Below are positions 3,391-33,924 of a stretch of DNA of 64,000 nt, piece after piece. The position numbers and the translations under genes are program-made. The stretch spans positions 4,242,869-4,306,868 of the forward strand of contig NZ_KV917378.1 of the NCBI RefSeq assembly GCF_002019735.1. Reading direction: 5' to 3'. The stretch is from Salipaludibacillus agaradhaerens (lineage in GTDB: Bacteria > Bacillota > Bacilli > Bacillales > Salisediminibacteriaceae). Under the pieces are notes generated by a model that saw only the letters and a list, made by a program, of their open reading frames with translations, searched no databases and had not been told where the DNA came from. How positions within the stretch are numbered: position 1 is the stretch's first letter; the number at the start of each line of letters is the position of its first letter.

Positions 3391-3433
3391 TGTGATACTT
3401 TTCACAGAATCAGTTGACCCTTTTAGCTATACT
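3391..3433 (+). promoter_or_regulatory. Perfect Fnr box and -10 element
   Basis: TGTGATACTTTTCACA at 3391-3406 matches TGTGA-N6-TCACA in every defined position. A -10 element TATACT lies at 3428-3433. The box centre (3398.5) is therefore about 41.5 bases upstream of the expected start near 3440, the classic geometry of an Fnr-activated promoter. It points rightward into a region with no convincing gene. Confidence 0.75.
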
Positions 3434-7237: not shown

Positions 7238-7272
7238 TATTTTCACGCCCCTGTTCATTTAGTTAAATTAAA

Positions 7273-7308
7273 TAAAAAAAGGCACAACCATGATTTAGGT
7301 TGTACCTT
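7273..7308 (-). terminator. Leader terminator upstream of the GH13 gene
   Basis: Read on the minus strand, GGTACAACC pairs with GGTTGTGCC (one G-U) and is followed by seven T. It lies between the promoter and the start codon of the cyclomaltodextrinase gene, so it can only act on that gene's own leader. This suggests attenuation. A seven-codon frame (MLPKGTT, stop) runs through the 5' arm. Confidence 0.65.
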
Positions 7309-7348
7309 TGGGTAGCATTGCCTTGTTATTTAACGTATGTTCATGGTT

Positions 7349-7377
7349 AGTTTACTACCACTACATTCACATGTCAA
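7349..7377 (-). promoter_or_regulatory. Sigma-A promoter of the GH13 gene
   Basis: On the minus strand TTGACA (7377-7372) and TAAACT (7354-7349) are separated by 17 bases. The start would be near 7342, giving a leader of about 105 bases that contains the terminator above. Confidence 0.65.
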
Positions 7378-7847
7378 TTGTTAAAATGCATATGGATTAA
7401 TGATTCAGAATAGAGATTTATGAGCACATACTCTCCCTACAGTTGGGTCCCACGCTGACCTGTTTAAAGGAACGGAAGTGGCATTTCATAAAGGCAAACA
7501 GTCAATTTTTCAATTTAATAGTTAAAATTTAATGAAGGTTGCGAAAAGAGAATTTAAATATTGATGATATGGTAATGTGTTCCAGTGGAGGAAGGGAACA
7601 TTATGCAAACCACTGTCCATAAAGGGTGAGGTTAATCCTGTGGTATAATCAACAAGATATGCAAACGTAATTCAAGAAAAAAATTGAAAAATAAAATTAT
7701 TTTGGGAAAAATGAATGGAAGGTTAAAAAACGATTGTAAAAAGAATAACATCACGGAAAATTAGGCTAAAGTTCTCAAATAACAAAGGATTAACAAATTA
7801 CAAAAAATGATAAAAAGGTGAAATCGTTTTTAATTATTAAAAAAAGG

Positions 7848-7906
7848 TTGTGTTAATGTTTCGCCTAGATGTATAATAAATTTACAAAGTGATGCAAACG
7901 ATTTCA
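7848..7906 (+). promoter_or_regulatory. Promoter and LacI/CcpA-type operator before malE
   Basis: TTGTGT at 7848 and TATAAT at 7872 are 18 bases apart. TGCAAACGATTTCA at 7893-7906 lies just after the expected start and resembles a LacI-family operator or cre site (one defined position off). Similar sequences occur near 7658 (TGCAAACGTAATTC), 7946 (GCAAACGGTTGTC) and 8060-8090 (AAAACGTTTGA and TGAAAGCGATTACG, the latter one base off a cre consensus). CcpA and a MalR-like repressor are the likely readers. Confidence 0.5.
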
Positions 7907-8200
7907 CAAGATATGAATGAAGTCGTCAATGGTCATTTTTTATTGCGCAAACGGTTGTCTTATAAATCCCATCCCTCTTCTCAGTTTCTGTGACGAAGTT
8001 CATTCTTTATTAGATGAGAACCTATTTGATGCCTCAAGATAAAAATGAAAATTAACACAAACAAAACGTTTGAAAGCGATTACGTTCTGTTAGGGGATTT
8101 TTATATTTTCATATTTTTATATGAATGAGGCAGTTGAAAATAGGTTAGATAAGACACGAATTGCGCATGAAAAACTTAAAAATATTTAGGGGGAAACCAA

Positions 8201-9496
8201 ATGTTAAAAAGTAAATCTTTCTTAATGTCGTTGATTTTAGTGTCTTCGATAGGGTTGGTTGCATGTGGTGGAGGAAATAATGACGAAGTAAACGCTCCAG
8301 CGAATGATTCTGAAACAGACAATATGAATAATGAGACAGTCACTGGAGAGGGAGACGTTCCTGAAAAGCCAGAACAACTTACAATGTGGGTAAATGATGA
8401 AGATGCACAAATTGATGCTTTGGAAGAAATTACTGCAAAATTCACTGAAGAATATGGTATTGAAGTGAATCTAACTCCTTATTCAATGGTAGATCAAGTC
8501 GAAGCTATTTCATTGGATGGCCCTGCTGGTCAAGGTCCAGATCTATTCTTCCAACCTCATGACCGTATGGGGGACATTCATGAACAAGGTTTAGCGGCAG
8601 AATTAGAATTAACTGATGATCAATTAGATCGTCTATCTAAGTACAATGAAGAAGCTGTTCAATCATTCAACTATGAAGGAATTCAGTACGGAATTCCAGC
8701 TGTTGTTGAAACTTACGCTCTTTTCCGCAATACGGAACTTGTTCCAGAAGCACCGGAAACGATCGATGAATTGATGGATATTGCACGGGACTTAACAGAT
8801 GGAAACAATTATGGTTTCTTAATGGAAGCAACAAACTTCTATTTCACATATCCTTTCTTAACTTCTTCAGGTGGATATGTATTTGGTCAAGAAGAAGACG
8901 GAACTTATGATTCTGAAGATATTGGGTTGAATTCACCAGGCGCTGTTGAAGGTGCTGAAGTTATTCAATCTTGGTTTGAAGAAGATCTGATGCCTAACGG
9001 AATTGATGCAGACATCATGAATGGTCTTTTCACAAGCGGTCAAGTTGGTATGGTTGTAACAGGTCCATGGTCTATTCCTGATTATGAAGAGGCTTTAGGT
9101 GACAACTTTGAAATTTCAACACTACCTGAGCAAGATGGTGAAGTATTAAGTTCTTTCTCTGGTAACAAAGGTTGGTTAGTAAACTATTATACTGAAAATG
9201 AATACTGGGCTACAGAATTAGCGTTGTTCCTAACAAATGCTGAAAACTCAGAAACTTATTTTGACATTGCTGGAGAGCTTCCTGCTCATACCGATGTTGA
9301 AATCGAGGATGAGTTCATGAGTCCAATTTTCGAGCAAGCACAACATGCTGAGCCAATGCCTAACATTCCAGAAATGTCTCAAGTTTGGGAACCGATTGGT
9401 GATGCCCTTGAATTCATCTCACAAGGAGATGATCCACAAGAAGTTCTTGATGAGGCAGTTGAACAGATCAAAGAACAAATCTCAATTATGAATTAA
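8201..9496 (+). CDS. Maltodextrin/cyclodextrin-binding lipoprotein MalE-like
   Basis: This is the extracytoplasmic solute-binding protein of the following ABC importer. The signal peptide ends in a lipobox LVAC (Cys about residue 22). A very acidic, Asn/Glu-rich linker follows and then a family 1 binding fold, with LTMWVNDEDAQIDALEEI and the typical FTSGQVGMVVTGPWS region. Strong acidity fits an alkaliphile's exterior. The start follows AGGGGG. Similar proteins are MdxE and CycB of bacilli; the neighbouring CGTase and cyclomaltodextrinase suggest cyclodextrins and linear maltodextrins as ligands. The true specificity cannot be read from sequence. Confidence 0.9.
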   Translation: MLKSKSFLMSLILVSSIGLVACGGGNNDEVNAPANDSETDNMNNETVTGEGDVPEKPEQLTMWVNDEDAQIDALEEITAKFTEEYGIEVNLTPYSMVDQVEAISLDGPAGQGPDLFFQPHDRMGDIHEQGLAAELELTDDQLDRLSKYNEEAVQSFNYEGIQYGIPAVVETYALFRNTELVPEAPETIDELMDIARDLTDGNNYGFLMEATNFYFTYPFLTSSGGYVFGQEEDGTYDSEDIGLNSPGAVEGAEVIQSWFEEDLMPNGIDADIMNGLFTSGQVGMVVTGPWSIPDYEEALGDNFEISTLPEQDGEVLSSFSGNKGWLVNYYTENEYWATELALFLTNAENSETYFDIAGELPAHTDVEIEDEFMSPIFEQAQHAEPMPNIPEMSQVWEPIGDALEFISQGDDPQEVLDEAVEQIKEQISIMN

Positions 9497-9512
9497 TATA
9501 TAGGAGAAAGTC

Positions 9513-9547
9513 GGGGGGAGACATATTTACTCTCCCTCCTAATTTTT
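9513..9547 (+). terminator. Intercistronic hairpin between malE and malF
   Basis: GGGGGGAG pairs with CTCCCTCC (one G-U) around a short loop, followed by AATTTTT. Partial termination here would give more binding protein than permease, a usual arrangement in ABC importers. Confidence 0.65.
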
Positions 9548-9564
9548 CACAGGAGGAAGCTAAT

Positions 9565-10875
9565 ATGGCTAAGATAAACAGTCAATACGAGCAGGATACT
9601 TTAGTCAATCCCAAGCATAATCCGACTGTAGCTGCGCTGCTTTCAGTTATTCCAGGGCTAGGGCAAATGTATAACAAGCGATATATTAAAGGTGCCGTCT
9701 TGTTCATTCTCTTTGCTGCTTTTATGGTTGTGATGATAGAGTTTATAGGTTCCGGATTACAAGGGTTGGTTACACTTGGTGAAGTGCCCAGACAAGACGA
9801 TTCCAGAGTCTTTTTAAGTAACGGGATTCTTTCGTTAATTATTGTCGCCTTCTTTTTAAGTTTCTACATTTTGAATATCCAAGATGCTTATAAAGACGCA
9901 AAGAGAATTCAATTAGGTTGGAAAGTACCGAATATTAGAGAAGGGTTTCGTAATGCGTGGGATACAGGTTTTCCTTACATGCTAATCGGGCCAGGGCTAT
10001 TTCTACTAATATTTGTTGTTGTTTTCCCTTTACTATTCATGGCGTTCTTAGCATTTACTAACTATAATTTATATAATGCACCACCGCGTCATATATTACA
10101 GTGGGTTGGACTTGAAAACTTTATCAATTTATTCACCATAAATGAGTGGAGAAATACTTTTGTTAGTGTATTGTCATGGACCTTAATTTGGACGTTTGTA
10201 GCGACTACTTTGCAAATTGCCCTAGCAATGTTCTTGGCAGTTATTGTTAATGATCCAAGGTTAAAGTTTAAAAAACTGATTAGAACAGTGTTCATTTTAC
10301 CTTGGGCTGTTCCGGCCTTTGTAACAATCATTATCTTTTCAGCTATTTTCAATGACAACTTTGGCGCCATTAACTTGCAAATTATTGAACCTTTATTCAA
10401 CACACGAATTGCATGGTTACAGGATCCGTTCTGGACTAAAGTTGCTTTAATTATGATTCAAGTTTGGCTTGGTTTTCCATTTGTATTCGCTTTGTTTACA
10501 GGAGTTCTTCAAGGAATTTCCTCTGATTGGTATGAAGCAGCAGATATTGATGGAGCCAATAGAATGCAGAAATTCCGTAATATCACATTTCCGCACTTGA
10601 TGTTCGCTACTGCACCACTATTGATCATGCAGTATTCATTTAACTTTAACAACTTTAATATTATTTACTTATTTAACCAAGGTGGACCAGCTGTTCGAGG
10701 TCAAACAGCCGGTGGTACAGATATTTTGATTTCTTGGATTTACGGGTTGACGTTCGAAACCCAACAGTTTAATATGGCTGCAGCCATTTCTATTATTTTA
10801 GGAATACTTGTAGCGACGTTTGCGTTCTTCCAATTCCGTCGTTCTCGTTCCTTTAAAGAGGAGGGAACTTTCTAA
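9565..10875 (+). CDS. Maltodextrin ABC permease MalF-like
   Basis: An integral membrane subunit of the maltodextrin/cyclodextrin importer. The 436 residues carry an N-terminal extension containing GLGQMYNKRYIKGAV, as in MdxF-type permeases. The binding-protein-dependent transport domain follows, with the coupling-helix motif EAADIDGANRMQKFRNITFP near residue 325 that contacts the ATPase. About eight membrane segments are apparent. It is preceded by CAGGAGG and its stop overlaps the malG start by one base. No ATPase gene is in the cluster; a shared MsmX-type ATPase encoded elsewhere is the expected partner. Confidence 0.93.
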   Translation: MAKINSQYEQDTLVNPKHNPTVAALLSVIPGLGQMYNKRYIKGAVLFILFAAFMVVMIEFIGSGLQGLVTLGEVPRQDDSRVFLSNGILSLIIVAFFLSFYILNIQDAYKDAKRIQLGWKVPNIREGFRNAWDTGFPYMLIGPGLFLLIFVVVFPLLFMAFLAFTNYNLYNAPPRHILQWVGLENFINLFTINEWRNTFVSVLSWTLIWTFVATTLQIALAMFLAVIVNDPRLKFKKLIRTVFILPWAVPAFVTIIIFSAIFNDNFGAINLQIIEPLFNTRIAWLQDPFWTKVALIMIQVWLGFPFVFALFTGVLQGISSDWYEAADIDGANRMQKFRNITFPHLMFATAPLLIMQYSFNFNNFNIIYLFNQGGPAVRGQTAGGTDILISWIYGLTFETQQFNMAAAISIILGILVATFAFFQFRRSRSFKEEGTF

Positions 10876-11744
10876 TGAGTATAAAAACAGGAAAGAAACC
10901 AATAAGTAGCAAAAATAAAAATCTTATAGAATTAATAGGGATTTACACAGTTGTTGCAATTATGTTTGTCATCATTCTTTATCCTTTAGTTTGGGCATTT
11001 GGATTATCCCTTAATCCGGGGCGCGGACTTTATGGTGCGCAAATTATACCTGAAAACTGGTCGTTAGTGCATTATGAATGGTTGTTCTTTGATCCTAGAA
11101 GTGACTATTTAATTTGGTATAAGAACACATTAATTATTGCAGTTTCAGTTTCCTTTTTAGCCACTTTTTTTGTAGCTTTGACCGCTTACGCTTTCTCAAG
11201 ATACCGTTTCAAGGGACGAAAAAATGGTTTGTATGCGTTTTTGCTCTTGCAAATGTTCCCTATTTTAATGGCGATGGTGGCCCTATATATCTTGTTGAAC
11301 ACAATAAATTTATTGGATAGTTTGATCGGTTTAATTATTATCTATGTAGGTGGGGCTATCCCAATGAATGCCTTTCTTGTAAAGGGCTATTTTGACACAC
11401 TGCCAAGAGAGCTGGATGAATCAGCTAAAATCGATGGAGCCGGTCACTTCCGAATATTTTTTCAAATCTTGCTTCCATTAGCAAAACCAATATTAGCCGT
11501 TGTAGCCTTGTTCAACTTCATGGCACCTTTTATGGACTTTCTTTTGCCGCGAATCGTTCTGAGAAGTCCGGAAAATTACACATTAGCTCTTGGGTTGTTT
11601 AACTTTGTAAACGATGAATTTGCTAATAACTTTACTCGTTTTGCCGCAGGAGCAATTTTAATTGCTGTTCCAATTGCATTGGTTTATTTGTTCTTACAAC
11701 GCTACCTAATTTCAGGATTAGCATCTGGCGCAACCAAAGGTTAA
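10875..11744 (+). CDS. Maltodextrin ABC permease MalG-like
   Basis: The second membrane subunit of the importer, 289 residues with six likely membrane segments. The coupling motif DESAKIDGAGHFRIFFQILLP lies near residue 178. It resembles MdxG/MalG. Its start overlaps the malF stop. A strong terminator follows at 11884-11927, closing the malEFG unit before the separately regulated CGTase gene. Confidence 0.93.
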   Translation: MSIKTGKKPISSKNKNLIELIGIYTVVAIMFVIILYPLVWAFGLSLNPGRGLYGAQIIPENWSLVHYEWLFFDPRSDYLIWYKNTLIIAVSVSFLATFFVALTAYAFSRYRFKGRKNGLYAFLLLQMFPILMAMVALYILLNTINLLDSLIGLIIIYVGGAIPMNAFLVKGYFDTLPRELDESAKIDGAGHFRIFFQILLPLAKPILAVVALFNFMAPFMDFLLPRIVLRSPENYTLALGLFNFVNDEFANNFTRFAAGAILIAVPIALVYLFLQRYLISGLASGATKG

Positions 11745-11883
11745 TCGTTAAATGTTTTAAGGGTTATCCTCCACTAAGGTACGTAGCGGAGGGGAGAACG
11801 TTTAATCAGGTGACGTCGAGACGCTATCTGATTTCTCAATGCTCCAGATTGCTTAAACGAGTTCGCTTGAAAATAAGAATACT

Positions 11884-11927
11884 GAGATATGAGAAGGAGG
11901 CATGTTCCTTATCTCATATCTCTTTTT
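11884..11927 (+). terminator. Terminator of malEFG
   Basis: GAGATATGAGA pairs with TCTCATATCTC, with further pairing inside, followed by TTTTT. Confidence 0.85.
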
Positions 11928-11962
11928 AGTTAGTATTATATTGAAAAAATGGTTTAAATAGG

Positions 11963-12011
11963 TTTACATTAGTTGAATTATTTGCTATTCTTTATTGAGA
12001 AAGCGCTTTCA
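11963..12011 (+). promoter_or_regulatory. CGTase promoter with cre site on the start point
   Basis: TTTACA at 11963 and TATTCT at 11986 (17 bases apart) precede AGAAAGCGCTTTCA at 11998-12011, which is 13 of 14 to the cre consensus and nearly symmetric. The cre lies on the expected transcription start, which implies CcpA-mediated glucose repression of the CGTase gene. Confidence 0.75.
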
Positions 12012-12026
12012 TAAAATTGGAGGGCA

Positions 12027-12100
12027 ATGTCTTTGTGATTGTGTGTAATAGCGCAAAGCAACCCCGCACCTTACTGTGTAAGGTGCTTTTTGCATCTTAA
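12027..12100 (+). promoter_or_regulatory. CGTase leader: mini-ORFs over an intrinsic terminator
   Basis: After TGGAGGG there is a three-codon frame (ATG TCT TTG TGA, 12027-12038). Its stop overlaps a GTG (12035) that opens a 21-residue frame ending at 12100, running right through the terminator hairpin. Ribosome movement over these frames could set how often transcription reads on to the CGTase gene. The arrangement is seen; the regulation is inferred. Confidence 0.45.
12067..12092 (+). terminator. Terminator inside the CGTase leader
   Basis: GCACCTTAC and GTAAGGTGC form a perfect 9-bp stem with a TGT loop, followed by five T. It lies between the CGTase promoter (start near 11998) and the CGTase ATG at 12153, with no other gene for it to serve, so it marks an attenuator. 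Confidence 0.75.
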
Positions 12101-12152
12101 GAGAAAGGAGAGAAGAAAACGCACATTTAAAAATCCAAGGAGGGAAAATGAA

Positions 12153-14294
12153 ATGAGGAAAAAGACTCTAAAGAGGTTGTTAACTTTGGTAGTAGGGTTA
12201 GTTATTTTGAGTGGATTAAGTATACTAGATTTTTCTATAACAAGTGCAAGTGCACAGCAAGCAACAGATCGTTCAAATAGTGTAAACTATTCAACAGATG
12301 TCATTTATCAAATTGTAACAGATAGGTTTTACGATGGTGATGAAAGTAACAACCCATCAGGAGAACTTTATTCGGAAGATTGTAAAAACTTAAGAAAATA
12401 TTGTGGTGGAGATTGGCAAGGGATAATAGATAAAATAGATGATGGTTATCTAACGAACATGGGTGTGACGGCACTATGGATCTCACCCCCAGTTGAAAAT
12501 ATTTTTGAAACGATTGATGATGAGTTTGGGACAACTTCTTATCACGGTTATTGGGCACGAGATTATAAGAAAACGAACCCTTTTTTCGGAAGCACAGAAG
12601 ATTTTGAAAGGTTAATAGAAACTGCACATAGTCACGATATTAAAATTGTTATTGATTTAGCTCCTAACCATACATCACCTGCAGATTTTGATAATCCTGA
12701 CTATGCCGAAAATGGTGTCTTATATGATGATGGTAACTATTTGGGTTCGTATTCAGATGATTCTGATTTATTTTTATATAACGGCGGAACAGATTTCTCT
12801 AACTACGAAGATGAGATTTATAGAAATTTGTTTGACTTAGCTAGTTTTAATCATATCAACTCTGAGTTGAATAATTATTTAGAAGATGCAGTGAAAAAAT
12901 GGTTAGATTTAGGTATAGACGGGATTCGCATCGATGCTGTAGCTCACATGCCACCAGGTTGGAAAAAAGCTTACATGGATACTATATATGACCACAGAGC
13001 GGTATTTACTTTTGGAGAATGGTTTACTGGACCTTCTGGAAATGAGGATTACACTAAATTTGCAAATAATAGTGGCATGAGTGTATTAGATTTCCGCTTT
13101 GCTCAAACTACACGAAATGTCATCGGTAACAATAATGGAACGATGTATGATATTGAAAAGATGCTAACAGACACAGAGAATGACTATGATCGTCCTCAAG
13201 ATCAAGTTACTTTTCTTGATAATCATGACATGAGTCGATTTACGAATGGTGGTGAATCAACACGGACAACAGATATTGGATTAGCCTTAATGCTTACATC
13301 TCGTGGGGTGCCTACTATTTATTATGGAACAGAACAATACATGAAAGGTGATGGAGATCCAGGAAGCAGGGGAATGATGGCATCTTTTGATGAAAATACA
13401 GATGCTTATAAGCTAATTCAAAAATTAGCACCGTTAAGAAAAAGTAATCCTGCATATGGATATGGAACAACGACAGAACGTTGGATAAACGATGATGTCC
13501 TCATTTATGAAAGACATTTTGGCGAGAACTATGCTTTAATCGCCATAAATAGAAGCTTAAATACCTCCTATAATATCCAAGGGTTACAAACAGAGATGCC
13601 ATCCAATTCATATGATGATGTATTAGATGGATTATTGGATGGGCAATCAATTGTTGTTGATAACAAAGGGGGAGTTAATGAATTTCAAATGTCTCCTGGA
13701 GAGGTGAGTGTATGGGAATTTGAAGCGGAAAATGTAGACAAGCCTTCAATTGGACAAGTTGGCCCAATAATTGGTGAGGCAGGACGAACTGTTACAATAA
13801 GTGGAGAAGGTTTCGGTTCTTCGCAGGGGACTGTTCACTTTGGATCCACTTCAGCAGAAATCCTTTCTTGGAATGATACGATCATTACCTTAACTGTGCC
13901 GAACAATGAAGCGGGATACCATGATATCACTGTTGTAACAGAAGATGAACAAGTAAGTAATGCCTATGAATTCGAAGTTCTTACGGCCGATCAAGTCACA
14001 GTTCGTTTTATCATAGACAATGCAGAAACGAAGCTGGGTGAAAACGTTTTCCTTGTAGGTAACGTTCATGAATTAGGAAATTGGGATCCAGAACAATCAG
14101 TTGGGAGATTTTTCAATCAAATTGTATACCAATATCCAACATGGTATTATGATGTGAATGTTCCTGCAAATACAGACTTAGAATTCAAGTTTATTAAAAT
14201 AGATCAAGATAATAACGTCATTTGGCAGAGTGGAGCTAATCAAACCTATTCTTCACCAGAAAGTGGAACTGGTATTATAAGAGTTGATTGGTGA
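12153..14294 (+). CDS. Secreted cyclodextrin glucanotransferase, gamma-type signature
   Basis: CGTase turns starch into cyclodextrins outside the cell. A signal peptide (about residues 1-34, ending SASA) is followed by the A/B/C GH13 domains, an IPT/TIG D domain (from about 530) and a C-terminal CBM20 starch-binding domain (from about 610). Catalytic residues are Asp261 (GIRIDAVAHM), Glu289 (FGEWF) and Asp359 (DNHD); the central aromatic is Phe227. Ala264 replaces the usual Lys of the VKHMP segment, and Gly296 lies seven residues after the acid/base Glu. In B. clarkii gamma-CGTase the same two acceptor-site positions are Ala223 and Gly255. The ATG at 12153 follows AAGGAGGG; an upstream in-frame extension overlaps the leader and is rejected. 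At 713 aa it is full length. Confidence 0.93.
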   Translation: MRKKTLKRLLTLVVGLVILSGLSILDFSITSASAQQATDRSNSVNYSTDVIYQIVTDRFYDGDESNNPSGELYSEDCKNLRKYCGGDWQGIIDKIDDGYLTNMGVTALWISPPVENIFETIDDEFGTTSYHGYWARDYKKTNPFFGSTEDFERLIETAHSHDIKIVIDLAPNHTSPADFDNPDYAENGVLYDDGNYLGSYSDDSDLFLYNGGTDFSNYEDEIYRNLFDLASFNHINSELNNYLEDAVKKWLDLGIDGIRIDAVAHMPPGWKKAYMDTIYDHRAVFTFGEWFTGPSGNEDYTKFANNSGMSVLDFRFAQTTRNVIGNNNGTMYDIEKMLTDTENDYDRPQDQVTFLDNHDMSRFTNGGESTRTTDIGLALMLTSRGVPTIYYGTEQYMKGDGDPGSRGMMASFDENTDAYKLIQKLAPLRKSNPAYGYGTTTERWINDDVLIYERHFGENYALIAINRSLNTSYNIQGLQTEMPSNSYDDVLDGLLDGQSIVVDNKGGVNEFQMSPGEVSVWEFEAENVDKPSIGQVGPIIGEAGRTVTISGEGFGSSQGTVHFGSTSAEILSWNDTIITLTVPNNEAGYHDITVVTEDEQVSNAYEFEVLTADQVTVRFIIDNAETKLGENVFLVGNVHELGNWDPEQSVGRFFNQIVYQYPTWYYDVNVPANTDLEFKFIKIDQDNNVIWQSGANQTYSSPESGTGIIRVDW

Positions 14295-14781: not shown

Positions 14782-14820
14782 AGTGATAAAAATCACACAT
14801 TTGCTGTGATGAAATGCACA
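14782..14820 (+). promoter_or_regulatory. Two Fnr-like boxes before the nitrate operon
   Basis: AGTGATAAAAATCACA (14782-14797) and TGTGATGAAATGCACA (14805-14820) each differ from TGTGA-N6-TCACA at one position. They are 23 bases apart centre to centre and 68-106 bases before the first gene. The linked fnr gene at 21.1 kb makes anaerobic activation the natural reading. Confidence 0.65.
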
Positions 14821-14887: not shown

Positions 14888-16030
14888 ATGACAGCATTGG
14901 AGAAATCTTTCTATTCTAAAGCTAGTATGTATTCATTTATTGTTGTACTCACGCTATTTGGTCTTATGTGGATTGGCACAGGACGGTTTTCACATATGGA
15001 TTGGATGCTTTTTGGTTATATGGTTTCGTCGTTTGTCTTTTTTATTGGGATGACAGTACGGTTGACTTCTTGGATGATGAGACCGGCTACACATGAAATG
15101 ATAAAACGTTCAATTGAGAATATGAAGTCAAGAAAAAGACAAAAACGGAATGCTAGAGCCATAGCTAAAACGATGGTAGTTAACATTATTTTACAAAAGT
15201 TCATTTTTAAACGAGGGGTTTATAGAGGTATTCAACATTGGCTGATTGCTTGGGGATGTATTGGATCGTTAGCTATTACATTCAGCTTAACGTTTGGATG
15301 GATGCACTTTAAACTCGTTGATCCTGAGACTTATCAAGTGGTTGTATTTAATATTCCTACCTTAAAAATGACAGCTAATGGCCTTCTAGCCAATATGTTT
15401 TACGAGGGATTAAACATTACAGCTTCTATGCTAATGATTGGCCTCGTTATGGCTTTATTTCAGCGAATTAAGAGTAAAGATCTTAAAGTCACATCTAGAG
15501 CAGAATTTGATTTATTTCCGCTATACATCTTACTTGCAGTGACGTTAAGTGGCCTTTTATTAACTGTTTCTTACAAATTGCTCGCTGGTTGGATGCATCC
15601 AGAATTGGCACTCATGCATCAGATTACAGTCGTTATATTTCTTATTTATTTTCCTTTTGGTAAGCTCTTTCATTTACCAGTAAGGCCGTTAGCGACAGCG
15701 GTTCCGATGAATTATACTGAAGCGAGAATAGGAGATACGAAAGAATGTGCAGGTTGTGCTGAACGGTATTCTACCGACGATCAAATTGCAGATGTTAAAA
15801 CGATTTTAGATAAACAAGCATTTGACCTCAAAAATGATAATGGTGACTGGCTAGCTGATTACTGCCCAGCTTGCCGCAGAAAAATTCGGGTCATGAGTCA
15901 ATTGAATCTCCCAGGTCAAAAGACTAACCCAGTGCCTGTGCAAACGAATAATGGTATACATGTTCCGGGGTTCGGACGTAAAAGGTCAGAGAGTTTTTAC
16001 TCATCTATGAACGATAAAGGGGATGTTTAA
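14888..16030 (+). CDS. NarI/DsrM-like membrane subunit with C-terminal four-cysteine domain
   Basis: An integral membrane protein of 380 residues, probably the quinol-oxidising anchor of the reductase encoded next. It has about six membrane segments. Histidines sit where NarI-like b-type cytochromes use them: GIQHWLIAWG near residue 118 and LALMHQITVV...PFGKLFHLP near 256-275. The last 100 residues are soluble and contain ECAGCAER and DYCPACRRK, two CxxC pairs that could bind zinc or an iron centre; this is not part of classic NarI. AAGGAGG supports ATG 14888 (GTG 14885 is possible). The stop abuts the next gene's start. Function as a nitrate reductase gamma-like subunit is inferred. Confidence 0.7.
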   Translation: MTALEKSFYSKASMYSFIVVLTLFGLMWIGTGRFSHMDWMLFGYMVSSFVFFIGMTVRLTSWMMRPATHEMIKRSIENMKSRKRQKRNARAIAKTMVVNIILQKFIFKRGVYRGIQHWLIAWGCIGSLAITFSLTFGWMHFKLVDPETYQVVVFNIPTLKMTANGLLANMFYEGLNITASMLMIGLVMALFQRIKSKDLKVTSRAEFDLFPLYILLAVTLSGLLLTVSYKLLAGWMHPELALMHQITVVIFLIYFPFGKLFHLPVRPLATAVPMNYTEARIGDTKECAGCAERYSTDDQIADVKTILDKQAFDLKNDNGDWLADYCPACRRKIRVMSQLNLPGQKTNPVPVQTNNGIHVPGFGRKRSESFYSSMNDKGDV

Positions 16031-18154
16031 ATGACTAAATTTGTAGTTAAACCAGGGGTGAAAAATTTACAGCATGAAGATGAAAAGCTCGTTACTACCC
16101 ATTGTTGTTACTGTGGGATGCAGTGCGGTATGCACATTCGAGTGAATAAAAAATCAGGGAATGTCGTAGGTGTTGAACCGCGCTACGATTGGCCAGTGAC
16201 AAATGGAAAAATGTGTCCAAAAGGGGTCACAGCTTACCAAACTGTTGATCATCCTAATCGTATTAAAACACCTCTCATCAAAAAGAATGGCAAATTTGTT
16301 GAAAGTACATGGGAGGAAGCGTTAGACCTAATTGAAAAAAATTATAAACGCTTGCAAAGTCATTATGGAAAGGACGCTTTGTCCGTATTTGGCGGTGTCT
16401 CCATGACAAATGAAAAGTGTTATTTAGTAGGGAAATATGCCCGTGTAGCTCTTGGGACCCGTTATGTTGATTATAATGGCCGTTTTTGTATGTCATCTGC
16501 AGCAGGAGGTTTTATGAAAACACTTGGCCTTGATAGAGGGTCTACTCTTCCTTGGCCAGAATTGGAACATACAGATTGTTTTTTTATGGCAGGGACAAAT
16601 ACCGCAGAGTGTCATCCTACAACAATCCAATGGTTATGGAAAGCAAGAGATAAAGGGGCAAAGATGATCGTAGCTGATCCCCGGGAAACACCGACTGCGA
16701 GAATTGCCGATGTTCATTTAGATTTAAAAGCTGGGACTGATTCAGCTCTTGCTAATGGTATGATGCATCTTCTGATAAAAGAAGGCTATGTGGACGAGGC
16801 ATATGTTCAGACAAGATGCCATAATTTTGAGGAATTAAAAGAAGCTGTTAAGGCGTTTACTCCTGAAAAAACTGCCATGATTACTGGGGTTGATAAAGAG
16901 AAAATAGTGAAAGCAGCCACTATTTTTGGGCGTTCTCCTCGTTCGGTCGTCATGTTTGCTCGGGGAATCGAGCAGCAACGAAAAGGGGTAGACAATGTCT
17001 GTTTATATACGTCTATGGCACTGTTAAGGGGGCAGATTGGAAAATTTGCTTCCGGTGTTGCGACTTTCACTGGTCAAGGCAATGGTCAAGGAGGGAGAGA
17101 ACATGGACAAAAAGCAGATGCCCTCCCCGGATATAGGAAAATTGATAATCCTGAACACGTCGCTTACGTGTCAGACGTGTGGGGCATTGATCCGAAGGAA
17201 ATGCCTCAAGCAGGTGTATCAGCTTATGAAATGTTTGATCACATTCAACAAGGCAAAATTAAAGCGATGCACGTCATTTGTAGTAATCCTGCAGTATCAG
17301 CTCCGAATAATCATTACATTTGGGAGGGGTTTAAAAAATTAGATTTTATGGTTGTTTCGGACTTCTTTTTATCTGAAACAGCAGAATTTGCTGATGTGGT
17401 GTTGCCTACTACAACGTGGGCGGAGGATGAAGGGACGACCACAAACCTTGAAGGTCGTGTCATTCGTATTAGAAAAGTGAAAGAACCTGTTGGAGAAGCG
17501 AAAACAGATTGGGAGATTATGCAGTTAATCGCTGAACGCATGGGAAAAAAATCGTTCTTCCCTTATACATCAGTCAGTGATATTTATGAAGAATTCCGAT
17601 TAGCATCAAAAGGTGGAAAAGCCGATTACTACGGCATTACGTATGATCGAATTGAAAAAGAAGATGGCGTATTTTGGCCGTGTCCAGATGAGAAACATCC
17701 TGGTTCACCGACGATGTTCACTGAATCATTTGCAACGGAAGATGGGAAAGCCAATTTAGCTGTTGTCGGGTGGGAAGAACCTGGTGAAACACCGTCGGAT
17801 GACTACCCACACATATTGACGACAGGTCGGGTTGTCTTTCACTACTTATCAGGCACACAAACACGAAGAACACCATTTCTCATGGAACAGTGTCCTGAAC
17901 CATATGCAGAAATACATCCGGAAATGGCTGCTAAGTATCGTTTGAATAATGGCGATCGGGTCGTATTAACAACAAAGCGTGGAGACATAACGGTTCCCGT
18001 AAAGTTGACGAAGGCCATTCGGCGTGACCACATTTTTGTCCCTTATCATTGGGGGAAAGAATTGTCTATTAATAAACTGACTAATCCTGCACTTGACCCT
18101 ACATCACGAATGCCGGAGTTCAAAGTGTGTGCCGTCCGAATGCAAAAAGCATAA
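16031..18154 (+). CDS. Molybdopterin oxidoreductase, NasA/NarB-type nitrate reductase
   Basis: The catalytic subunit, 707 residues, bis-MGD DMSO-reductase family. An N-terminal 4Fe-4S motif (CCYCGMQCG, then KMCPKG) is followed by the Mo-ligand cysteine in GRFCMSSAAGG, MGD-binding segments (ADPRETPTA) and a C-terminal dinucleotide-binding domain (HILTTGRVVFHYLSGTQTRR). GQGNGQGGREHG...LPGYR resembles the nitrate reductase signature of NasA/NarB/NapA rather than NarG, where the Mo ligand is Asp. There is no Tat signal, so it acts in the cytoplasm. No NasD/NasE-type nitrite reductase gene accompanies it; instead there is a membrane anchor, ferredoxin, Rieske protein and NarK, which suggests respiratory use. 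Formate dehydrogenase activity is a less likely alternative. Confidence 0.85.
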   Translation: MTKFVVKPGVKNLQHEDEKLVTTHCCYCGMQCGMHIRVNKKSGNVVGVEPRYDWPVTNGKMCPKGVTAYQTVDHPNRIKTPLIKKNGKFVESTWEEALDLIEKNYKRLQSHYGKDALSVFGGVSMTNEKCYLVGKYARVALGTRYVDYNGRFCMSSAAGGFMKTLGLDRGSTLPWPELEHTDCFFMAGTNTAECHPTTIQWLWKARDKGAKMIVADPRETPTARIADVHLDLKAGTDSALANGMMHLLIKEGYVDEAYVQTRCHNFEELKEAVKAFTPEKTAMITGVDKEKIVKAATIFGRSPRSVVMFARGIEQQRKGVDNVCLYTSMALLRGQIGKFASGVATFTGQGNGQGGREHGQKADALPGYRKIDNPEHVAYVSDVWGIDPKEMPQAGVSAYEMFDHIQQGKIKAMHVICSNPAVSAPNNHYIWEGFKKLDFMVVSDFFLSETAEFADVVLPTTTWAEDEGTTTNLEGRVIRIRKVKEPVGEAKTDWEIMQLIAERMGKKSFFPYTSVSDIYEEFRLASKGGKADYYGITYDRIEKEDGVFWPCPDEKHPGSPTMFTESFATEDGKANLAVVGWEEPGETPSDDYPHILTTGRVVFHYLSGTQTRRTPFLMEQCPEPYAEIHPEMAAKYRLNNGDRVVLTTKRGDITVPVKLTKAIRRDHIFVPYHWGKELSINKLTNPALDPTSRMPEFKVCAVRMQKA

Positions 18155-18182
18155 CTCACGATGAACGAAGGGGGAGTGGCTC

Positions 18183-18725
18183 ATGAAAAAAGTCATGTAT
18201 TTAGAATTTGAACGCTGCATCGGATGCAGAGCCTGTCAGGCTGCCTGTAGAGAGTGTGGTGGCCATGATGCAAAAGAAAGAAATTATGTAGAGTATGTGG
18301 ATTTTTTGGAGAATCGCCAAACGTATCCTATGCTGTGTATGCAATGTAAAGACCCAGCATGTGCAAAAGTTTGCCCTGCAAATGCCATTCAAATTACTGA
18401 AGAAGGTGTCGTTCTATCAGCGATGGAAGAAAAATGTATCGGATGCCGTAATTGTACATTTGGCTGTCCATTTGGAATTCCGAAATTCGACTTTGAAGAA
18501 AACAAAATGTACAAGTGTGATATGTGTTACGACCGTACGAAATATGATATTGCTCCTATGTGTGCGTCAGTATGTCCATCAGATGCTATTCGATTTATTG
18601 ATCATGATGAGATGATGTCATTGAGACGGCGACGAACACAACTAAATCTAATCGAAGGAAAAAAACCATCTGAACATGATAAATGGGCGTATGTTCCTGA
18701 ATTTTTCGGTGTGTATTCAGATTAA
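18183..18725 (+). CDS. Four-cluster ferredoxin subunit (NrfC/DmsB type)
   Basis: This electron-transfer subunit probably links the membrane anchor to the molybdoenzyme. Its 180 residues hold four cysteine groups, enough for four 4Fe-4S clusters: CIGCRACQAAC near residue 12, CMQCKDPACAKVCP near 57, CIGCRNCTFGCP near 88 and CDMCYDR...CASVCP near 117-133. There is no Tat signal, so it should face the cytoplasm with the catalytic subunit. The start follows GGGGGAG. It lies 28 bases after the reductase gene in the same operon. Confidence 0.9.
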   Translation: MKKVMYLEFERCIGCRACQAACRECGGHDAKERNYVEYVDFLENRQTYPMLCMQCKDPACAKVCPANAIQITEEGVVLSAMEEKCIGCRNCTFGCPFGIPKFDFEENKMYKCDMCYDRTKYDIAPMCASVCPSDAIRFIDHDEMMSLRRRRTQLNLIEGKKPSEHDKWAYVPEFFGVYSD

Positions 18726-18766
18726 AAATTTAAGTCGACCGCCTATTTTAGAAAGGAGTATGACGG

Positions 18767-19300
18767 ATGACTAATGACGATAAAAAAGGACGTAACCGGC
18801 AAAAATCAACATCAGATATGGTTAATTTAATGGGAAATGTGGAGCAAAAAGATGACTTAACATATAATCGTCGTGCCTTTTTAAAAACAGCCGCTGGCGC
18901 TTCAGTTGCGCTAGGGCTATCGACGGTTCCCTTTAGTGTAAGGGCGATGATGGGTATAGCAGAAGATGAAAGTGAGCGTGTGGAAATAGCGCATGTTGAT
19001 CAGCTACCGAAAGGGGAATCCCTCACATTTCATTATCCCACAGATAATGATCCTGCTTTACTCGTGCATACTATGTCTGGTGAACTAGTAGCCTATAATT
19101 CTGCTTGTACACATCTTATGTGTCCTGTGTTTTACAAAAAAGAAACAGATACACTCCTTTGTCCGTGTCATAAAGGCTATTTTGATGTTAATAACGGACA
19201 TCCGCTTGAAGGACCACCACAAAGAGAGCTCCCTATGATTCATTTAGAGATAGACGCTAATATTATTTATGCCGTAGGTAGGTCGTATCGCCATGAGTAA
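18767..19300 (+). CDS. Tat-exported Rieske 2Fe-2S protein
   Basis: A twin-arginine signal, YNRRAFLKTAAGASVALG (about residues 38-55), follows a charged 37-residue leader. The exported domain binds a Rieske 2Fe-2S cluster through CTHLMC and CPCHKGYF (about residues 110-140). The protein is 177 residues. An exported Rieske next to a cytoplasmic molybdoenzyme is unusual. Comparable Rieske/cytochrome b pairs accompany nitrate reductases of haloarchaea. Here it probably takes part in quinol oxidation with the membrane anchor, but its direct partner is unknown. The start follows AAAGGAG, and it overlaps the next small gene by 8 bases. Confidence 0.88.
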   Translation: MTNDDKKGRNRQKSTSDMVNLMGNVEQKDDLTYNRRAFLKTAAGASVALGLSTVPFSVRAMMGIAEDESERVEIAHVDQLPKGESLTFHYPTDNDPALLVHTMSGELVAYNSACTHLMCPVFYKKETDTLLCPCHKGYFDVNNGHPLEGPPQRELPMIHLEIDANIIYAVGRSYRHE

Positions 19301-19502
19301 AAAAATATGTTGGATCATTATTTTTATAACGATAGCTATTAATGTCGTTATGGTTCAATGGACAGTCGAATCTTATTTAGGAAGAGAGTACGAAAAAGTG
19401 ATTGTCTTTTCAGCAATAGGGGTAGTGGGGGCTTTCATCGCTTTTTTTGCTTATTTAAATTGGAGAAAGGTTGAGTACACCCATTCAAGTAAAGAAGAAT
19501 AG
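19293..19502 (+). CDS. Small membrane protein of the nitrate operon
   Basis: 69 residues with two hydrophobic segments (about 4-22 and 36-53) and a short charged tail (THSSKEE). It overlaps the Rieske gene by 8 bases and so is translationally coupled to it. No family recognised. A role as a small subunit or assembly factor of the membrane complex is inferred from position only. Confidence 0.65.
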   Translation: MSKKICWIIIFITIAINVVMVQWTVESYLGREYEKVIVFSAIGVVGAFIAFFAYLNWRKVEYTHSSKEE

Positions 19503-19624
19503 GTGTGATCAGTAATCGTGTTACTTAACCGAGGGGACAAGAAGTTCACGATAAACGAACTTATAAATGTGGTTAGTGACTTGAAAAACAATTCATTATG
19601 TCCTACTAACCTGAGCAAAACATA

Positions 19625-20935
19625 ATGTTGGGAGAGATAACGATGGCACGAATAACGAGATGGGAACCGGAAGATCCTTCTTTTTGGGAAAGTGAAGGGA
19701 AGTATCATGCACGGAGAAATTTATGGATTTCTATTACAGCTTTATTTTTAGCATTTGCTGTTTGGCAAATTTGGTCTGTTATGGCGACTAATTTGAATGA
19801 TATAGGATTTAATTATACTGAAAGTGAATTGTTTTTATTAACCGCTTTACCAGGACTGACTGGCGCAACGTTAAGAATAATATATACTTTTCTCGTTCCA
19901 ATTTTTGGCGGAAGGAATTGGACTGTCATCAGTACAGCATCATTACTAATTCCCGCAGTGGGCATTGGTTTTGCTGTTCAAAATCCTGAAACACCTTTCT
20001 GGATAATGGCTCTATTAGCGGCTTTATGTGGATTTGGCGGAGGGAATTTCGCTTCCAGTATGTCAAATATTAGCTTTTTCTATCCTAAGAAAGCAAAAGG
20101 AACGGCACTTGGATTGAATGCAGGGATAGGCAATCTCGGTGTGAGTGCTGTTCAACTATTATCCCCACTGGTCATAGCCTTTGCGCTTTTTGGTCCATTA
20201 GGGGGAGCTCCACAGTATCTTGGTGATGGGAAAGAAGTATTTATGCAAAATGCTGCTTTTATTTGGGTGTTGCCTATAGCTTTTACAGTTGTGGCTGCTT
20301 TTTTTGGAATGGATAATTTGCCGACGATGAAAACGTCGATCAAAGAACAGGCTGTTATTTTTAAAAATAAGCATACATGGATTATGACGTGGTTGTATAC
20401 GATGTGTTTTGGCTCCTTCATTGGCTATGCAGCAGCTTTTCCGTTATTGACACGTACAGAATTCCCAGAAGTTAATGTGCTTCAAATTGCGTTTATTGGA
20501 CCATTACTCGGTGCTCTCATTCGCCCGATAGGAGGTTGGTTATCAGATAAACTTGGTGGAGCATTCGTCACGTTTTGGGATATCCTCTTGTTAATCGGAA
20601 GTACTCTTGGTGTTATGTATTTTTATAACAGCGGTAACTTTACCGGATTTCTTATTATGTTTATTATCGTATTTATTGCTACTGGTATTGCTAATGGCTC
20701 AACATTTAGAATGATCCCTTTTATTTTTGAACAAAAAGAAGCTGCTTCCGTCATTGGTTTTACTTCCGCGATAGCTGCCTATGGCGCTTTTCTAATACCG
20801 AGTTTATTTGGTTGGTCAATCGATGTGACCGGTATGGCTAATTTAGCGCTAGGTATTTTTATAGTTTACTACATTGTTAGCTTAGCACTTCATTGGTACT
20901 ATTACTCTCGAAAAGGAGCAGAAGTTAAGTGTTAA
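19625..20935 (+). CDS. narK: Nitrate/nitrite transporter NarK
   Basis: A major facilitator protein of 436 residues with 12 likely membrane segments. The nitrate signature is visible in GFGGGNFASSMSNISFFYP (near residue 139) and in the second-half GIANGSTFRMIPFIF. A conserved Arg is in TLRIIYTF. It would import nitrate or export nitrite for the preceding reductase, which strongly supports nitrate as substrate of the operon. Its start follows GGGAGAG. A terminator follows at 20982-21018. Confidence 0.93.
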   Translation: MLGEITMARITRWEPEDPSFWESEGKYHARRNLWISITALFLAFAVWQIWSVMATNLNDIGFNYTESELFLLTALPGLTGATLRIIYTFLVPIFGGRNWTVISTASLLIPAVGIGFAVQNPETPFWIMALLAALCGFGGGNFASSMSNISFFYPKKAKGTALGLNAGIGNLGVSAVQLLSPLVIAFALFGPLGGAPQYLGDGKEVFMQNAAFIWVLPIAFTVVAAFFGMDNLPTMKTSIKEQAVIFKNKHTWIMTWLYTMCFGSFIGYAAAFPLLTRTEFPEVNVLQIAFIGPLLGALIRPIGGWLSDKLGGAFVTFWDILLLIGSTLGVMYFYNSGNFTGFLIMFIIVFIATGIANGSTFRMIPFIFEQKEAASVIGFTSAIAAYGAFLIPSLFGWSIDVTGMANLALGIFIVYYIVSLALHWYYYSRKGAEVKC

Positions 20936-21148: not shown

Positions 21149-21859
21149 ATGGAAAAACAAAAGCTAAAAATGAAGCGTTTTTTTAATGAGATTTCTGAGG
21201 CTAATAAAGAACTGTTATTAAAAAACGGTTTAGAGATCAATGTTAAAAGCGGCACGTTTTTATTCTATGAAGGTGATTTCCCCGAGCATGTCTATCTTGT
21301 AAGATCGGGCAAAGTTAGGCTGAGCAAAATGACGTCAGAAGGTAAAGAGTTTTCTATTCATCTAAAGCAAAAAGATGAACTAGTTGGAGAAGTTGGGCTG
21401 TTCAATGAAATGTCCATTAGTGTAACTGCTGAAGTCATAGAAAATGCGTCACTTGTCCGCTTTGATCGACACACATTGGAAGCGCTATTTCGAGAAAATG
21501 GTGAAATTGCTGTGGCCTTTATGAAATGGTTTGCCCGACATACCCAATCAACACAGGCTAAATTTAGAGATTTAATTTTGTGTGGTAAAACAGGCGCTAT
21601 TTATTCAACTTTAATTCGTTTTAGTAATTCCTACGGGATAGAGAAACCAGACGGCGTTTTTATAAATGTGCAATTAACTAACCAAGATATTGCTAACTAC
21701 ATTGGTACTACAAGGGAAAGTGTCAATAGGTTGTTGAATGACTTAAAAAAAGCTGAGGTTCTTTCCATTACAAATGGTTACATCACGATTCATAGGTTGG
21801 AATTTTTAAAAGACTACTTGCACTGTGGTGACTGTCCAGTTGAAATATGCACTATCTAA
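21149..21859 (+). CDS. fnr: Oxygen-sensing regulator Fnr, Bacillus type
   Basis: A Crp/Fnr activator of 236 residues: N-terminal beta barrel, dimer helix, helix-turn-helix (IGTTRESVNRLLNDLKKA) and a C-terminal tail with CGDCPVEIC. The C-x2-C-x4-C arrangement at the C-terminus is where Bacillus subtilis Fnr binds its 4Fe-4S cluster, unlike E. coli FNR. It lies right behind narK, as in B. subtilis narK-fnr, though here it has its own terminator-separated unit. It probably acts on the Fnr boxes listed at 3.4, 14.8, 22.5 and 34.7 kb. Confidence 0.92.
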   Translation: MEKQKLKMKRFFNEISEANKELLLKNGLEINVKSGTFLFYEGDFPEHVYLVRSGKVRLSKMTSEGKEFSIHLKQKDELVGEVGLFNEMSISVTAEVIENASLVRFDRHTLEALFRENGEIAVAFMKWFARHTQSTQAKFRDLILCGKTGAIYSTLIRFSNSYGIEKPDGVFINVQLTNQDIANYIGTTRESVNRLLNDLKKAEVLSITNGYITIHRLEFLKDYLHCGDCPVEICTI

Positions 21860-21917: not shown

Positions 21918-22442
21918 TTATCGCTCCTCAACAGGATAAACAGTTAGTGAGTCACCGGAAAAAATCTGTTCACCTTCTGATGTGATAAGCGTGTAAGAAT
22001 CAGTGTTGTCCACAGTGGGGGGCACTAGGATACCGCGTGCTAGTCGCTTATTATATTGCCAAATTTCCACATTTGTGCCTGCCATTGATCGCTGTCGAGC
22101 TTTATCAATATAGTTAGCCCATTTTTGAAACCCATGGTATAAATAGGCTGGTTCACCTTGTTGATCATATCCTAGTAAGGCCTTTTTATCGTCTATCTTA
22201 GCGGATAAATCTGTAGCAAGTTCATCGACTAAGTAATAAAGTTCCTTACAACAGTTGAATGGAATATCATCTTCGCACGTTAATATTAAGTTATGATCAG
22301 AATTATGATGTTTAAACACGATGTCTATAGGTGCAGACGTTAATGTCTTTCTATAATGATCGTCATGGAATGTAAAGCCATGGTCAAACAATATAGGCGA
22401 AATACCGCGTATTGTTGAATAGGAAAATGTGACTGTGAGCAT
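21918..22442 (-). CDS. Unrecognised protein, 174 aa
   Basis: The start at ATG 22442 (MLTVTFSYSTIRG) follows AAGGAGGGG at good spacing, so it is a real gene. The protein is soluble, with a CCKELYYLVDEL helix in the middle and no signal peptide. I do not recognise a family. It lies between fnr and ywiC, on the opposite strand, with an Fnr box in the divergent region upstream, so redox control is possible. Confidence 0.7.
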   Translation of the reverse strand: MLTVTFSYSTIRGISPILFDHGFTFHDDHYRKTLTSAPIDIVFKHHNSDHNLILTCEDDIPFNCCKELYYLVDELATDLSAKIDDKKALLGYDQQGEPAYLYHGFQKWANYIDKARQRSMAGTNVEIWQYNKRLARGILVPPTVDNTDSYTLITSEGEQIFSGDSLTVYPVEER

Positions 22443-22538
22443 AGACTTTTTACCCCTCCTTAAGTAACACGATAAGATCATTATAGCAGGCTTCAAAAGA
22501 AGAGGCTGTGGGGAAAATCACATCACACTAATTAGTCT

Positions 22539-22576
22539 TGTGATTACCATCACATACAAAGATGTGGACATATAGT
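22539..22576 (+). promoter_or_regulatory. Perfect Fnr box before ywiC
   Basis: TGTGATTACCATCACA matches the consensus fully. A -10-like TATAGT follows at 22571-22576, close to the spacing expected for an Fnr-dependent promoter. It lies between ywiC and the divergent unknown gene. Confidence 0.7.
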
Positions 22577-22616
22577 ACACTCAGTACAATTAAGCATGAG
22601 GAAAGAAGGTGATTTC

Positions 22617-23345
22617 ATGAAATGGTATATCCCAAAGGAGCATGGGGCATGGGCGATGTTCATTATCCCATTTTGGACAGGGGCCGCCATCTCTGGCTTA
22701 TCTTGGCATCATCTTATTTTCTTTATAGGACTGACTGCGCTCTATTTTGCTCAAGCACCACTATTGACGTTTATCAGGCAGCCAAAGCATCAAGATATAT
22801 GGCCGTCCTTCTTGATATATACAGGAATTGGATTAAGTATAACAGTACCCTACATCGTCAGTGAAGTGTATTTAATTTATATCTTTTTAAGTATTTTGCC
22901 ACTATTCTTAGTGAATAGTTTGTTTGCAAAATTAAAAAAGGAACGTTTTTTTATAAATGATCTTTCAGCTATCGTAGCTTTGTCAGCTCTTCTGTTATCA
23001 GCTTATGTGATTGGATCAGGAGAATTACGGGCAGAAGCTTTTCACTATATGCTTCTTATCATTGTTTTCTTTGTGGCCAGTGTTTTTCATGTAAAGGCTC
23101 TTATACGAGAGAAGAATAATAAACCCTTTAAACTGGTGTCACTGGTATATCATATCGTTATTACGGTTTTAGCTTTTCTAACAGGCTGGCTCATGGCTGG
23201 AGTAGTCTTTTTATTAACATTAGGTAAAACGGCACTTATTCCTAAAAAATATTTAAGCAAGCCGAGGCAAATTGGGATAGTGGAAATCGTTAACAGTGCT
23301 GTTTTTCTAGTTTTATTAGTTAGTGGTTATTATGTCTTTGCCTGA
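22617..23345 (+). CDS. ywiC: YwiC-like membrane protein
   Basis: 242 residues, starting MKWYIPKEHGAWAMF, the hallmark of the YwiC family, with about seven to eight membrane segments. In B. subtilis ywiC sits beside the narK-fnr-narGHJI region and is under Fnr control, and the perfect Fnr box here agrees. Its biochemical role is unknown. I start at 22617 because GAAGGTG precedes that ATG; an in-frame ATG seven codons upstream lacks support. Confidence 0.85.
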   Translation: MKWYIPKEHGAWAMFIIPFWTGAAISGLSWHHLIFFIGLTALYFAQAPLLTFIRQPKHQDIWPSFLIYTGIGLSITVPYIVSEVYLIYIFLSILPLFLVNSLFAKLKKERFFINDLSAIVALSALLLSAYVIGSGELRAEAFHYMLLIIVFFVASVFHVKALIREKNNKPFKLVSLVYHIVITVLAFLTGWLMAGVVFLLTLGKTALIPKKYLSKPRQIGIVEIVNSAVFLVLLVSGYYVFA

Positions 23346-33851: not shown

Positions 33852-33924
33852 GTCTTGATTCCCGCAACGACTAATCAGGGGGGAGAAGAACAAAAAAGCC
33901 CATTGATTAAAGGCTCTTTTTATT
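33852..33924 (+). repeat. Dispersed repeat, 3' module (copy 4)
   Basis: It contains GACTAATCAGGGGGG, GAAGAACAAAAAAGCCCA and TTGATTAAAGGCTC with a following TTTT. A diverged copy of the final hairpin, downstream of liaR and ending at the stop of the convergent fnr-like gene. Confidence 0.6.

Follow-up and report, generated by a model that had tools for sequence, protein, structure and literature searches.

A putative respiratory nitrate reductase of NasC kinship, with a NarI-like anchor and a Rieske protein, in Salipaludibacillus agaradhaerens

We analysed a 64,000-nucleotide stretch of the Salipaludibacillus agaradhaerens genome (contig NZ_KV917378.1; 'the window' below), in which five consecutive plus-strand genes at 14888-19502 probably specify a membrane-bound nitrate reductase for respiration that differs in kind from Nar and Nap. 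Its parts are a membrane anchor of the NarI/QmoC/DsrM superfamily (14888-16030; start either GTG 14885 or ATG 14888), a molybdopterin catalytic subunit of 707 amino acids (16031-18154), a ferredoxin (18183-18725), a Rieske 2Fe-2S protein with a twin-arginine (Tat) signal (18767-19300), and a 69-residue protein with two hydrophobic helices (19293-19502), whose gene overlaps the Rieske gene by 8 bp. A NarK-family nitrate/nitrite transporter follows on the same strand (19625-20935; TIGR00886, 320.7 bits against a cut-off of 311.7). A first-pass annotation had listed these six open reading frames (ORFs), and all were found in place, including the 69-residue protein and NarK. Its end of the cluster at 20935 did not hold, since three more genes come after: those for an Fnr-type regulator, for an unnamed protein on the minus strand and for YwiC. 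The gene set, its conservation and kinship, the anchor fold, the Tat motif, the Fnr boxes and the genomic setting were all computed.

Conservation of the operon and kinship of its catalytic subunit

Scanning genome contigs with the catalytic subunit yielded 105 relatives, the best 80 of which were kept for locus counts. The genes for anchor, catalytic subunit, ferredoxin and Rieske protein lay on the same strand in the same order at 76 of the 80 loci; at the remaining four, contigs end inside the cluster. Judged from gene order, the catalytic, four-cluster and anchor subunits are thus encoded in one operon. More than 500 bases separate the ferredoxin and Rieske genes at 17 of the 76 loci, and the one gap examined (L043) holds a gene for a NUBPL-type P-loop NTPase. 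A radical SAM/SPASM gene also recurs in 16 loci, including L007 and L146.

The five-gene cluster is present in three bacterial phyla. By their titles, eight of the 80 loci are Bacteroidota with a diverged form, and the anchor was found in only 4 of 247 sampled Bacteroidota genomes, so that it is rare there. One further locus is titled Chryseobacterium sp. ISL-80 (L045); because its cluster is Mesobacillus-type, this genome is probably mislabelled or contaminated. Among 72,556 plasmid records four contained the anchor, all from Deinococcus and all with the whole gene set directly followed by a transporter (annotated as a nitrate transporter in two and as MFS in two). Within the family of S. agaradhaerens the Rieske gene occurred in 22 of 35 genomes (E < 1e-60), and within the order a close anchor occurred in 26 of 120 (E < 1e-140), while five more genomes had a paralogous form only. 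Public records name the subunits 'molybdopterin oxidoreductase family protein' or even 'MFS transporter', the latter being the label of the anchor in four public Deinococcus plasmid records (L104, L162, L163 and L164).

Two further observations concern these loci. The paralogous operon form (L153, L154 and L155) has anchors 36-40% identical to that of the window, and its downstream neighbours in L154 and L155 are narK and genes for a short HisKA_3 kinase and a response regulator; near the L154 operon there is no Fnr box but instead this two-component system, which could not be named NreBC. At four Bacteroidota loci (L075, L077, L078 and L080) members of a single gene cluster stand just upstream of the anchor. 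The one scanned (L075) is a SLAC1-family anion channel, perhaps for nitrate or nitrite.

The catalytic subunit carries an N-terminal 4Fe-4S motif and, as first annotated, the motif GRFCMSSA, in which Cys153 is the presumed Mo ligand and Met154 follows. Cys-Met occupies this site in every operon enzyme, 81 of 81 counting the 80 loci and the window. Aligned NasC, NasA and NapA sequences also have Cys-Met; in formate dehydrogenases the pair is Cys/Sec-His or Cys-Gln, and in a nitrate reductase from Streptomyces it is Cys-Thr. No twin-arginine motif was seen within the first 45 residues of the 81 catalytic subunits, some of whose start codons are uncertain, in line with the first-pass view of an enzyme without Tat signal. 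That it is neither NarG nor NapA was borne out by the profile scores (TIGR01580 for NarG, 77.9 bits against a cut-off of 1084; NapA family, 300.9 against 930.55). The arsenite oxidase AioA model gave 148.1 bits (cut-off 359), and the NCBIfam NasC equivalog gave 924.6, below its cut-off of 1100. With the NasC model the 35 family genomes fell into three non-overlapping groups: true NasC at 1172-1326 bits, operon enzymes at 888-928, and a remainder at or below 531 resembling formate dehydrogenases.

Two trees were built. In the first (56 rows, 29 from the operon), the operon rows formed a single clade (84/97) next to Bacillus NasC; E. coli NarG and the Streptomyces nitrate reductase had long branches. 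For the second we removed these, thinned 20 rows (13 operon, 6 NasC, 1 formate dehydrogenase) and included AioA (four rows), Deinococcus (two) and paralogues (three). Long branches in it are still flagged by the program, and one AioA row (L165) is named only through its neighbour AioB. Here the operon clade (21 rows) had a support of 100/99, and the group that joins it to NasC and to an enzyme of Deinococcus gobiensis adjoining NirBD had 100/100. Formate dehydrogenases fell outside this group (100/99) and AioA was separate, within a wider group that also includes the catalytic subunit. Cyanobacterial NarB lies outside the scope of both trees. By sequence the catalytic subunit is kin of NasC in a sister clade, not inside NasC, which agrees with the assimilatory-type kinship first assigned to it. 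An identity as formate dehydrogenase, hinted at by the TIGR01591 score (674 bits, cut-off 666.25) and the best PDB sequence matches, was rejected on the Cys-Met motif and the trees. From the earlier suggestion that an assimilatory enzyme was turned into a respiratory one, the NasC kinship survives; the two clades are sisters, and the trees favour neither direction of change.

Fnr boxes, genomic setting and nitrogen metabolism

We searched the 250 bp preceding the anchor start for Fnr boxes, allowing no more than one mismatch to TGTGA-N6-TCACA. The window has two on the plus strand (14782-14797 and 14805-14820, one mismatch each), matching the boxes first reported there. The window and 66 of 78 loci had such a box, exact in 55 of the 67 cases, and dinucleotide shuffles gave 1.1%. 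Since many loci are close kin, this count overstates independence. The loci without such a box are all eight of the Bacteroidota and four of the Bacillota.

Beyond narK, the window encodes an Fnr-type regulator with a C-terminal C-x2-C-x4-C motif (21149-21859, plus strand, by profile match and motif) and, past the unnamed gene, the YwiC-like membrane protein (ywiC, 22596-23345, plus strand, PF14256), upstream of which the box scan gave two more plus-strand boxes (22507-22522 with one mismatch and 22539-22554 exact). The full order narK-fnr-ywiC also stands in B. subtilis. NarK-type genes were found near 40 of the 80 loci, near the operon at five of the eight Bacteroidota loci, and on the Deinococcus plasmids. 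Among Fnr-like ORFs of more than 38% identity in the loci and the window, 42 of 45 had the C-terminal Cys motif. This matches the C-terminal cluster of B. subtilis Fnr as described in a passage of PMC8139620, where fnr is also said to be co-transcribed with narK. Fnr control of the operon is supported by these sequence features.

A similar setting surrounds narGHJI in one relative (G031) that carries NarG but lacks the operon. There, narGHJI is preceded by a ywiC with 54% identity to that of the window and by a Crp/Fnr gene that shares the Cys motif (31%), and it is followed by a narK 68% identical to that of the window; Fnr boxes stand before narG and before ywiC. A TIGR04053 look-alike of the radical SAM/SPASM gene also lies beside this narGHJI.

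According to profile scans, the genome of S. agaradhaerens encodes no NarG and no NapA, which supports a respiratory interpretation. Only two PF00384 proteins were found, the operon enzyme and a NasC. The NasC gene lies at 2.29 Mb with genes for NirB and a NarK-type transporter, a NirD-like ORF and apparent sirohaem-synthesis genes. The first-pass statement that an assimilatory nitrite reductase is lacking is correct for the window, where none was seen beside the operon, but not for the genome. The 17 kb around NasC-NirBD contained no Fnr box, which is weak evidence since 0.8 boxes are expected by chance. At 2.84 Mb we found NrfHA homologues, with one Fnr box about 355 bp upstream of nrfH. The surrounding 16 kb contain four further matches, two of which lie within nrfA, so that single box matches are weak evidence.

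Could the operon encode a quinol-fed assimilatory nitrate reductase that serves nitrogen supply at low oxygen? Its nearest kin is the assimilatory NasC, and the NirB of the genome could take the nitrite. However, the separate NasC-NirBD cluster, in which no Fnr box was seen, covers assimilation, and the operon has Fnr boxes and adjoins narK, fnr and ywiC. We therefore consider this explanation unlikely.

Among the 120 genomes of the order, NarG occurred in 19, NapA in 5 and NrfA in 10. Only one of the 26 close carriers of the operon also had NarG (one-sided p 0.046, a weak signal; kinship ignored), and 22 of the 26 lacked both NarG and NapA. If the operon works as proposed, the nitrate respiration of these 22 would be missed by narG/napA surveys. 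All three NrfA genomes without NarG and NapA had the operon (p 0.010; two genera, kinship ignored). A stronger link, with NarG or the operon in ten of ten NrfA genomes (p 2e-5), was seen at first, but five of the ten also have NapA. In Exiguobacterium profundum the operon enzyme is the only PF00384 protein. Three genomes (G015, which is the L005 genome, the L012 genome and G106) have NarG and the operon together, against strict replacement.

Two results slightly weaken the case for a respiratory role. First, the NrfHA homologues of this genome scored below their cut-offs (NrfA 320.8 against 595, NrfH 126.8 against 134.2); the NrfA matches of all ten NrfA genomes of the order are likewise below the curated cut-off. 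Second, the parallel with narG loci was full in only one of six: beside G031, one locus had more distant homologues of ywiC, fnr and narK (L149), one had narK only (L147), one only a distant narK-type gene (L148) and two none (L150 and L156), narJ being told by position at these loci. The parallel is thus real but not general.

Elsewhere in the window, a second Fnr-type regulator with the C-terminal Cys motif (33923-34645, minus strand) is 52% identical to the one at 21149, and a HisKA_3 kinase and a LuxR-type response regulator lie beside it (31995-33777, plus strand). The segment 844-4466 holds moeA and two mobB- and moaE-looking genes, then a minus-strand Crp/Fnr-like gene with an exact Fnr-type box nearby (3391-3406). 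It is followed at 5474-14294 by a starch/maltodextrin block with a maltogenic-amylase-like gene, apparent sugar ABC transporter genes and a CBM20 alpha-amylase-family enzyme. Two Fnr-type boxes, one exact, lie at 51125-51196 past the 3' end of genes for a DsbA-like thioredoxin and a truncated globin; no sizeable plus-strand gene is closely downstream of them.

Anchor, Rieske protein and proposed electron path

Comparison gave the anchor a NarI-type fold, and it belongs to the same superfamily as QmoC and DsrM; both results agree with its description as NarI/DsrM-like in the first-pass annotation. The model has six helices and a C-terminal domain with two CxxC motifs. His117, His244 and His262 are invariant. 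The equivalents of NarI His187 and His205 are invariant, and His117 is a candidate for NarI His56; if so, the position of His66 is Ser or Ala in 46 of 46 sequences. Strands predicted at residues 139-162 of the anchor may touch the Rieske protein. NarI has four haem-ligand histidines, and this set is not complete in the anchor, the fourth being without counterpart. From the charge pattern, the CxxC domain and the His117/His262 end are predicted to lie inside, and NarI carries NarGH on the inner side.

The ferredoxin has 16 Cys in four groups forming four 4Fe-4S motifs, and no signal peptide was seen in its sequence. The first-pass label 'NrfC-like' was right as to a four-cluster ferredoxin and loose as to NrfC, since formate dehydrogenase beta, HybA and DmsB are the better NCBIfam matches. 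The Rieske protein has the ligands CTH..C/CPCH. In a tree, it and its relatives make up one clade (91/93), to which neither AioB nor the family's QcrA belongs, and the ligand motif with both extra Cys is kept in 82 of 82. The Tat-type Rieske protein first reported was confirmed: the twin-arginine motif, NRRAFLK in the window, occurs in 80 of 82, and the other two are short at the N-terminal start. A Gly stands in all 82, as in the organism's own QcrA, at a site that is Ser in bc1 Rieske proteins. Given this exchange, the potential is likely middling and suited to menaquinone; in bc1 Rieske proteins, this Ser and a Tyr are held to raise it, according to a passage of PMC3758308. Of the plasmid Rieske matches, 17 of the 25 listed are annotated as arsenite oxidase small subunits.

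Homologues of the 69-residue protein were present at 64 of the 80 loci. In Brevibacillus a small two-helix protein without BLAST match to it fills its slot, and in Bacteroidota and Deinococcus DUF6755 does so. The unnamed minus-strand gene (21918-22442) encodes a fast-evolving protein of 174 residues that accompanies the operon in the window and at 54 of 80 loci, nearly always on the opposite strand; it had no Pfam match and no convincing NCBIfam or PDB match. No narJ was seen among the ORFs scanned beside the operon, so the unnamed protein may be a dedicated assembly factor.

NasC kinship, a NarI-type anchor, a Tat-type Rieske protein, Fnr control and the narGHJI-like setting in one relative partly support the respiratory, quinol-linked role first suggested; nitrate as substrate, quinol as donor, haem content, stoichiometry, electron path and the role of the Rieske protein we infer as follows. 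On the outer face, the NarI-like anchor and the exported Rieske protein would jointly oxidise menaquinol, and at the quinol site the Rieske protein may accept electrons first. Electrons would cross the membrane via b-type haem of the anchor (His117/His262 at the inner end, His244 further out) to the four-cluster ferredoxin docked inside, and from there reach the NasC-type subunit, whose 4Fe-4S/Mo-bisMGD centre would reduce nitrate imported by NarK to nitrite. Protons would be released outside, so energy would be conserved as in NarGHI, whose way of working is the likeliest model here; the new element is the outer Rieske protein. Fnr would turn the operon on without oxygen, and in this organism NrfHA could carry nitrite on to ammonium. 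It is a tentative, rather doubtful idea that the operon stands for a third class of respiratory nitrate reductase, in which the outer Rieske centre does some of what NarI's outer haem does, with bc1-like outer quinol oxidation by the Rieske centre and a NarI-fold cytochrome b, electrons passing inward to the NasC-type enzyme, and perhaps bifurcation and extra energy conservation.

In another arrangement, the Rieske Tat signal would carry the whole module outside by hitch-hiking, for Nap-like reduction there; the export of AioA with AioB is the precedent. The catalytic subunit and the ferredoxin have no signal and the Rieske protein has one, many plasmid Rieske matches carry the arsenite oxidase annotation, and AioA is in the wider group of the catalytic subunit. 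But export of this kind fits badly with NarK beside the operon, with the NarK-type genes at other loci and on Deinococcus plasmids, and with the anchor topology. It would also need three proteins on one signal, and a crude pattern revealed no TatA/TatC-like ORF near the operon. We regard it as quite improbable. That the enzyme reduces or oxidises some other oxyanion (chlorate, selenate, iodate or arsenite), or is a formate dehydrogenase, is very unlikely: the formate dehydrogenase cut-off is passed, the Rieske matches include arsenite oxidase subunits, and carriers include Mesobacillus selenatarsenatis and Anaerobacillus species, known for selenate or arsenate respiration (in part PMC11944866), but Cys-Met replaces Cys/Sec-His, both formate dehydrogenases and AioA lie outside the operon clade, and NarK-type genes are near the operon in Bacillota, Bacteroidota and Deinococcus.

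Comparison with known systems

We found no description of this gene set as a characterised complex in the open-access literature, to which our coverage extended and subscription journals did not belong. A 2021 review recognises two types with a demonstrated role in nitrate respiration, Nar and Nap (PMC8139620), a survey of the DMSO reductase family describes the NasC/NasA clade as without canonical four-cluster or anchor subunits and as serving assimilation only (PMC7331816), and a survey of nitrate ammonification names narG and napA as the only nitrate-step genes (PMC10716430). If the complex works as proposed, these statements of PMC8139620 and PMC7331816 would need a third case.

With NarGHI the operon shares the NarI-like anchor, the four-cluster Fe-S subunit, a presumed cytoplasmic catalytic subunit, Fnr boxes and, in one relative, neighbours of the narK/fnr/ywiC type. 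It differs by its NasC-type catalytic subunit with a Cys ligand (the Mo ligand of NarG is Asp), by the lack of narJ among the ORFs scanned, by the added Rieske and small membrane proteins and by the missing counterpart of the fourth haem His. Bacillus NasC is the sister clade with the same Cys-Met motif, but the operon enzymes form a discrete score group and have anchor, ferredoxin and Rieske partners as well as Fnr boxes. The anchor superfamily is shared with QmoC, DsrM, TcuB and EtfD, which partner other redox modules. Catalytic, four-cluster and anchor subunits make up the CISM type, which the operon fits.

AioAB and IdrAB likewise combine a Mo subunit of the wider Nas/Nap/Aio group with a Rieske partner, and a Tat signal is present on this partner, as in AioB. 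No ferredoxin or anchor genes were annotated within 3.5 kb at four aio loci examined, and the trees separate both Aio subunits from those of the operon; moreover, a passage of PMC7331816 describes AioA as having no amino-acid ligand to Mo. The Nap cluster of Caldithrix abyssi also encodes a Rieske protein, but as portrayed in part of PMC5317091 it consists of NapA with NapM, NapG and NapH, is periplasmic and has a bc-type cytochrome b. Thus, the parts are known and their combination is not described in the literature seen. We regard it as a modular quinol-linked molybdoenzyme, which would form a new class only if the Rieske role is shown, and the pairing of a Rieske centre on the outside with a Mo enzyme facing inward presents a testable bioenergetic puzzle.
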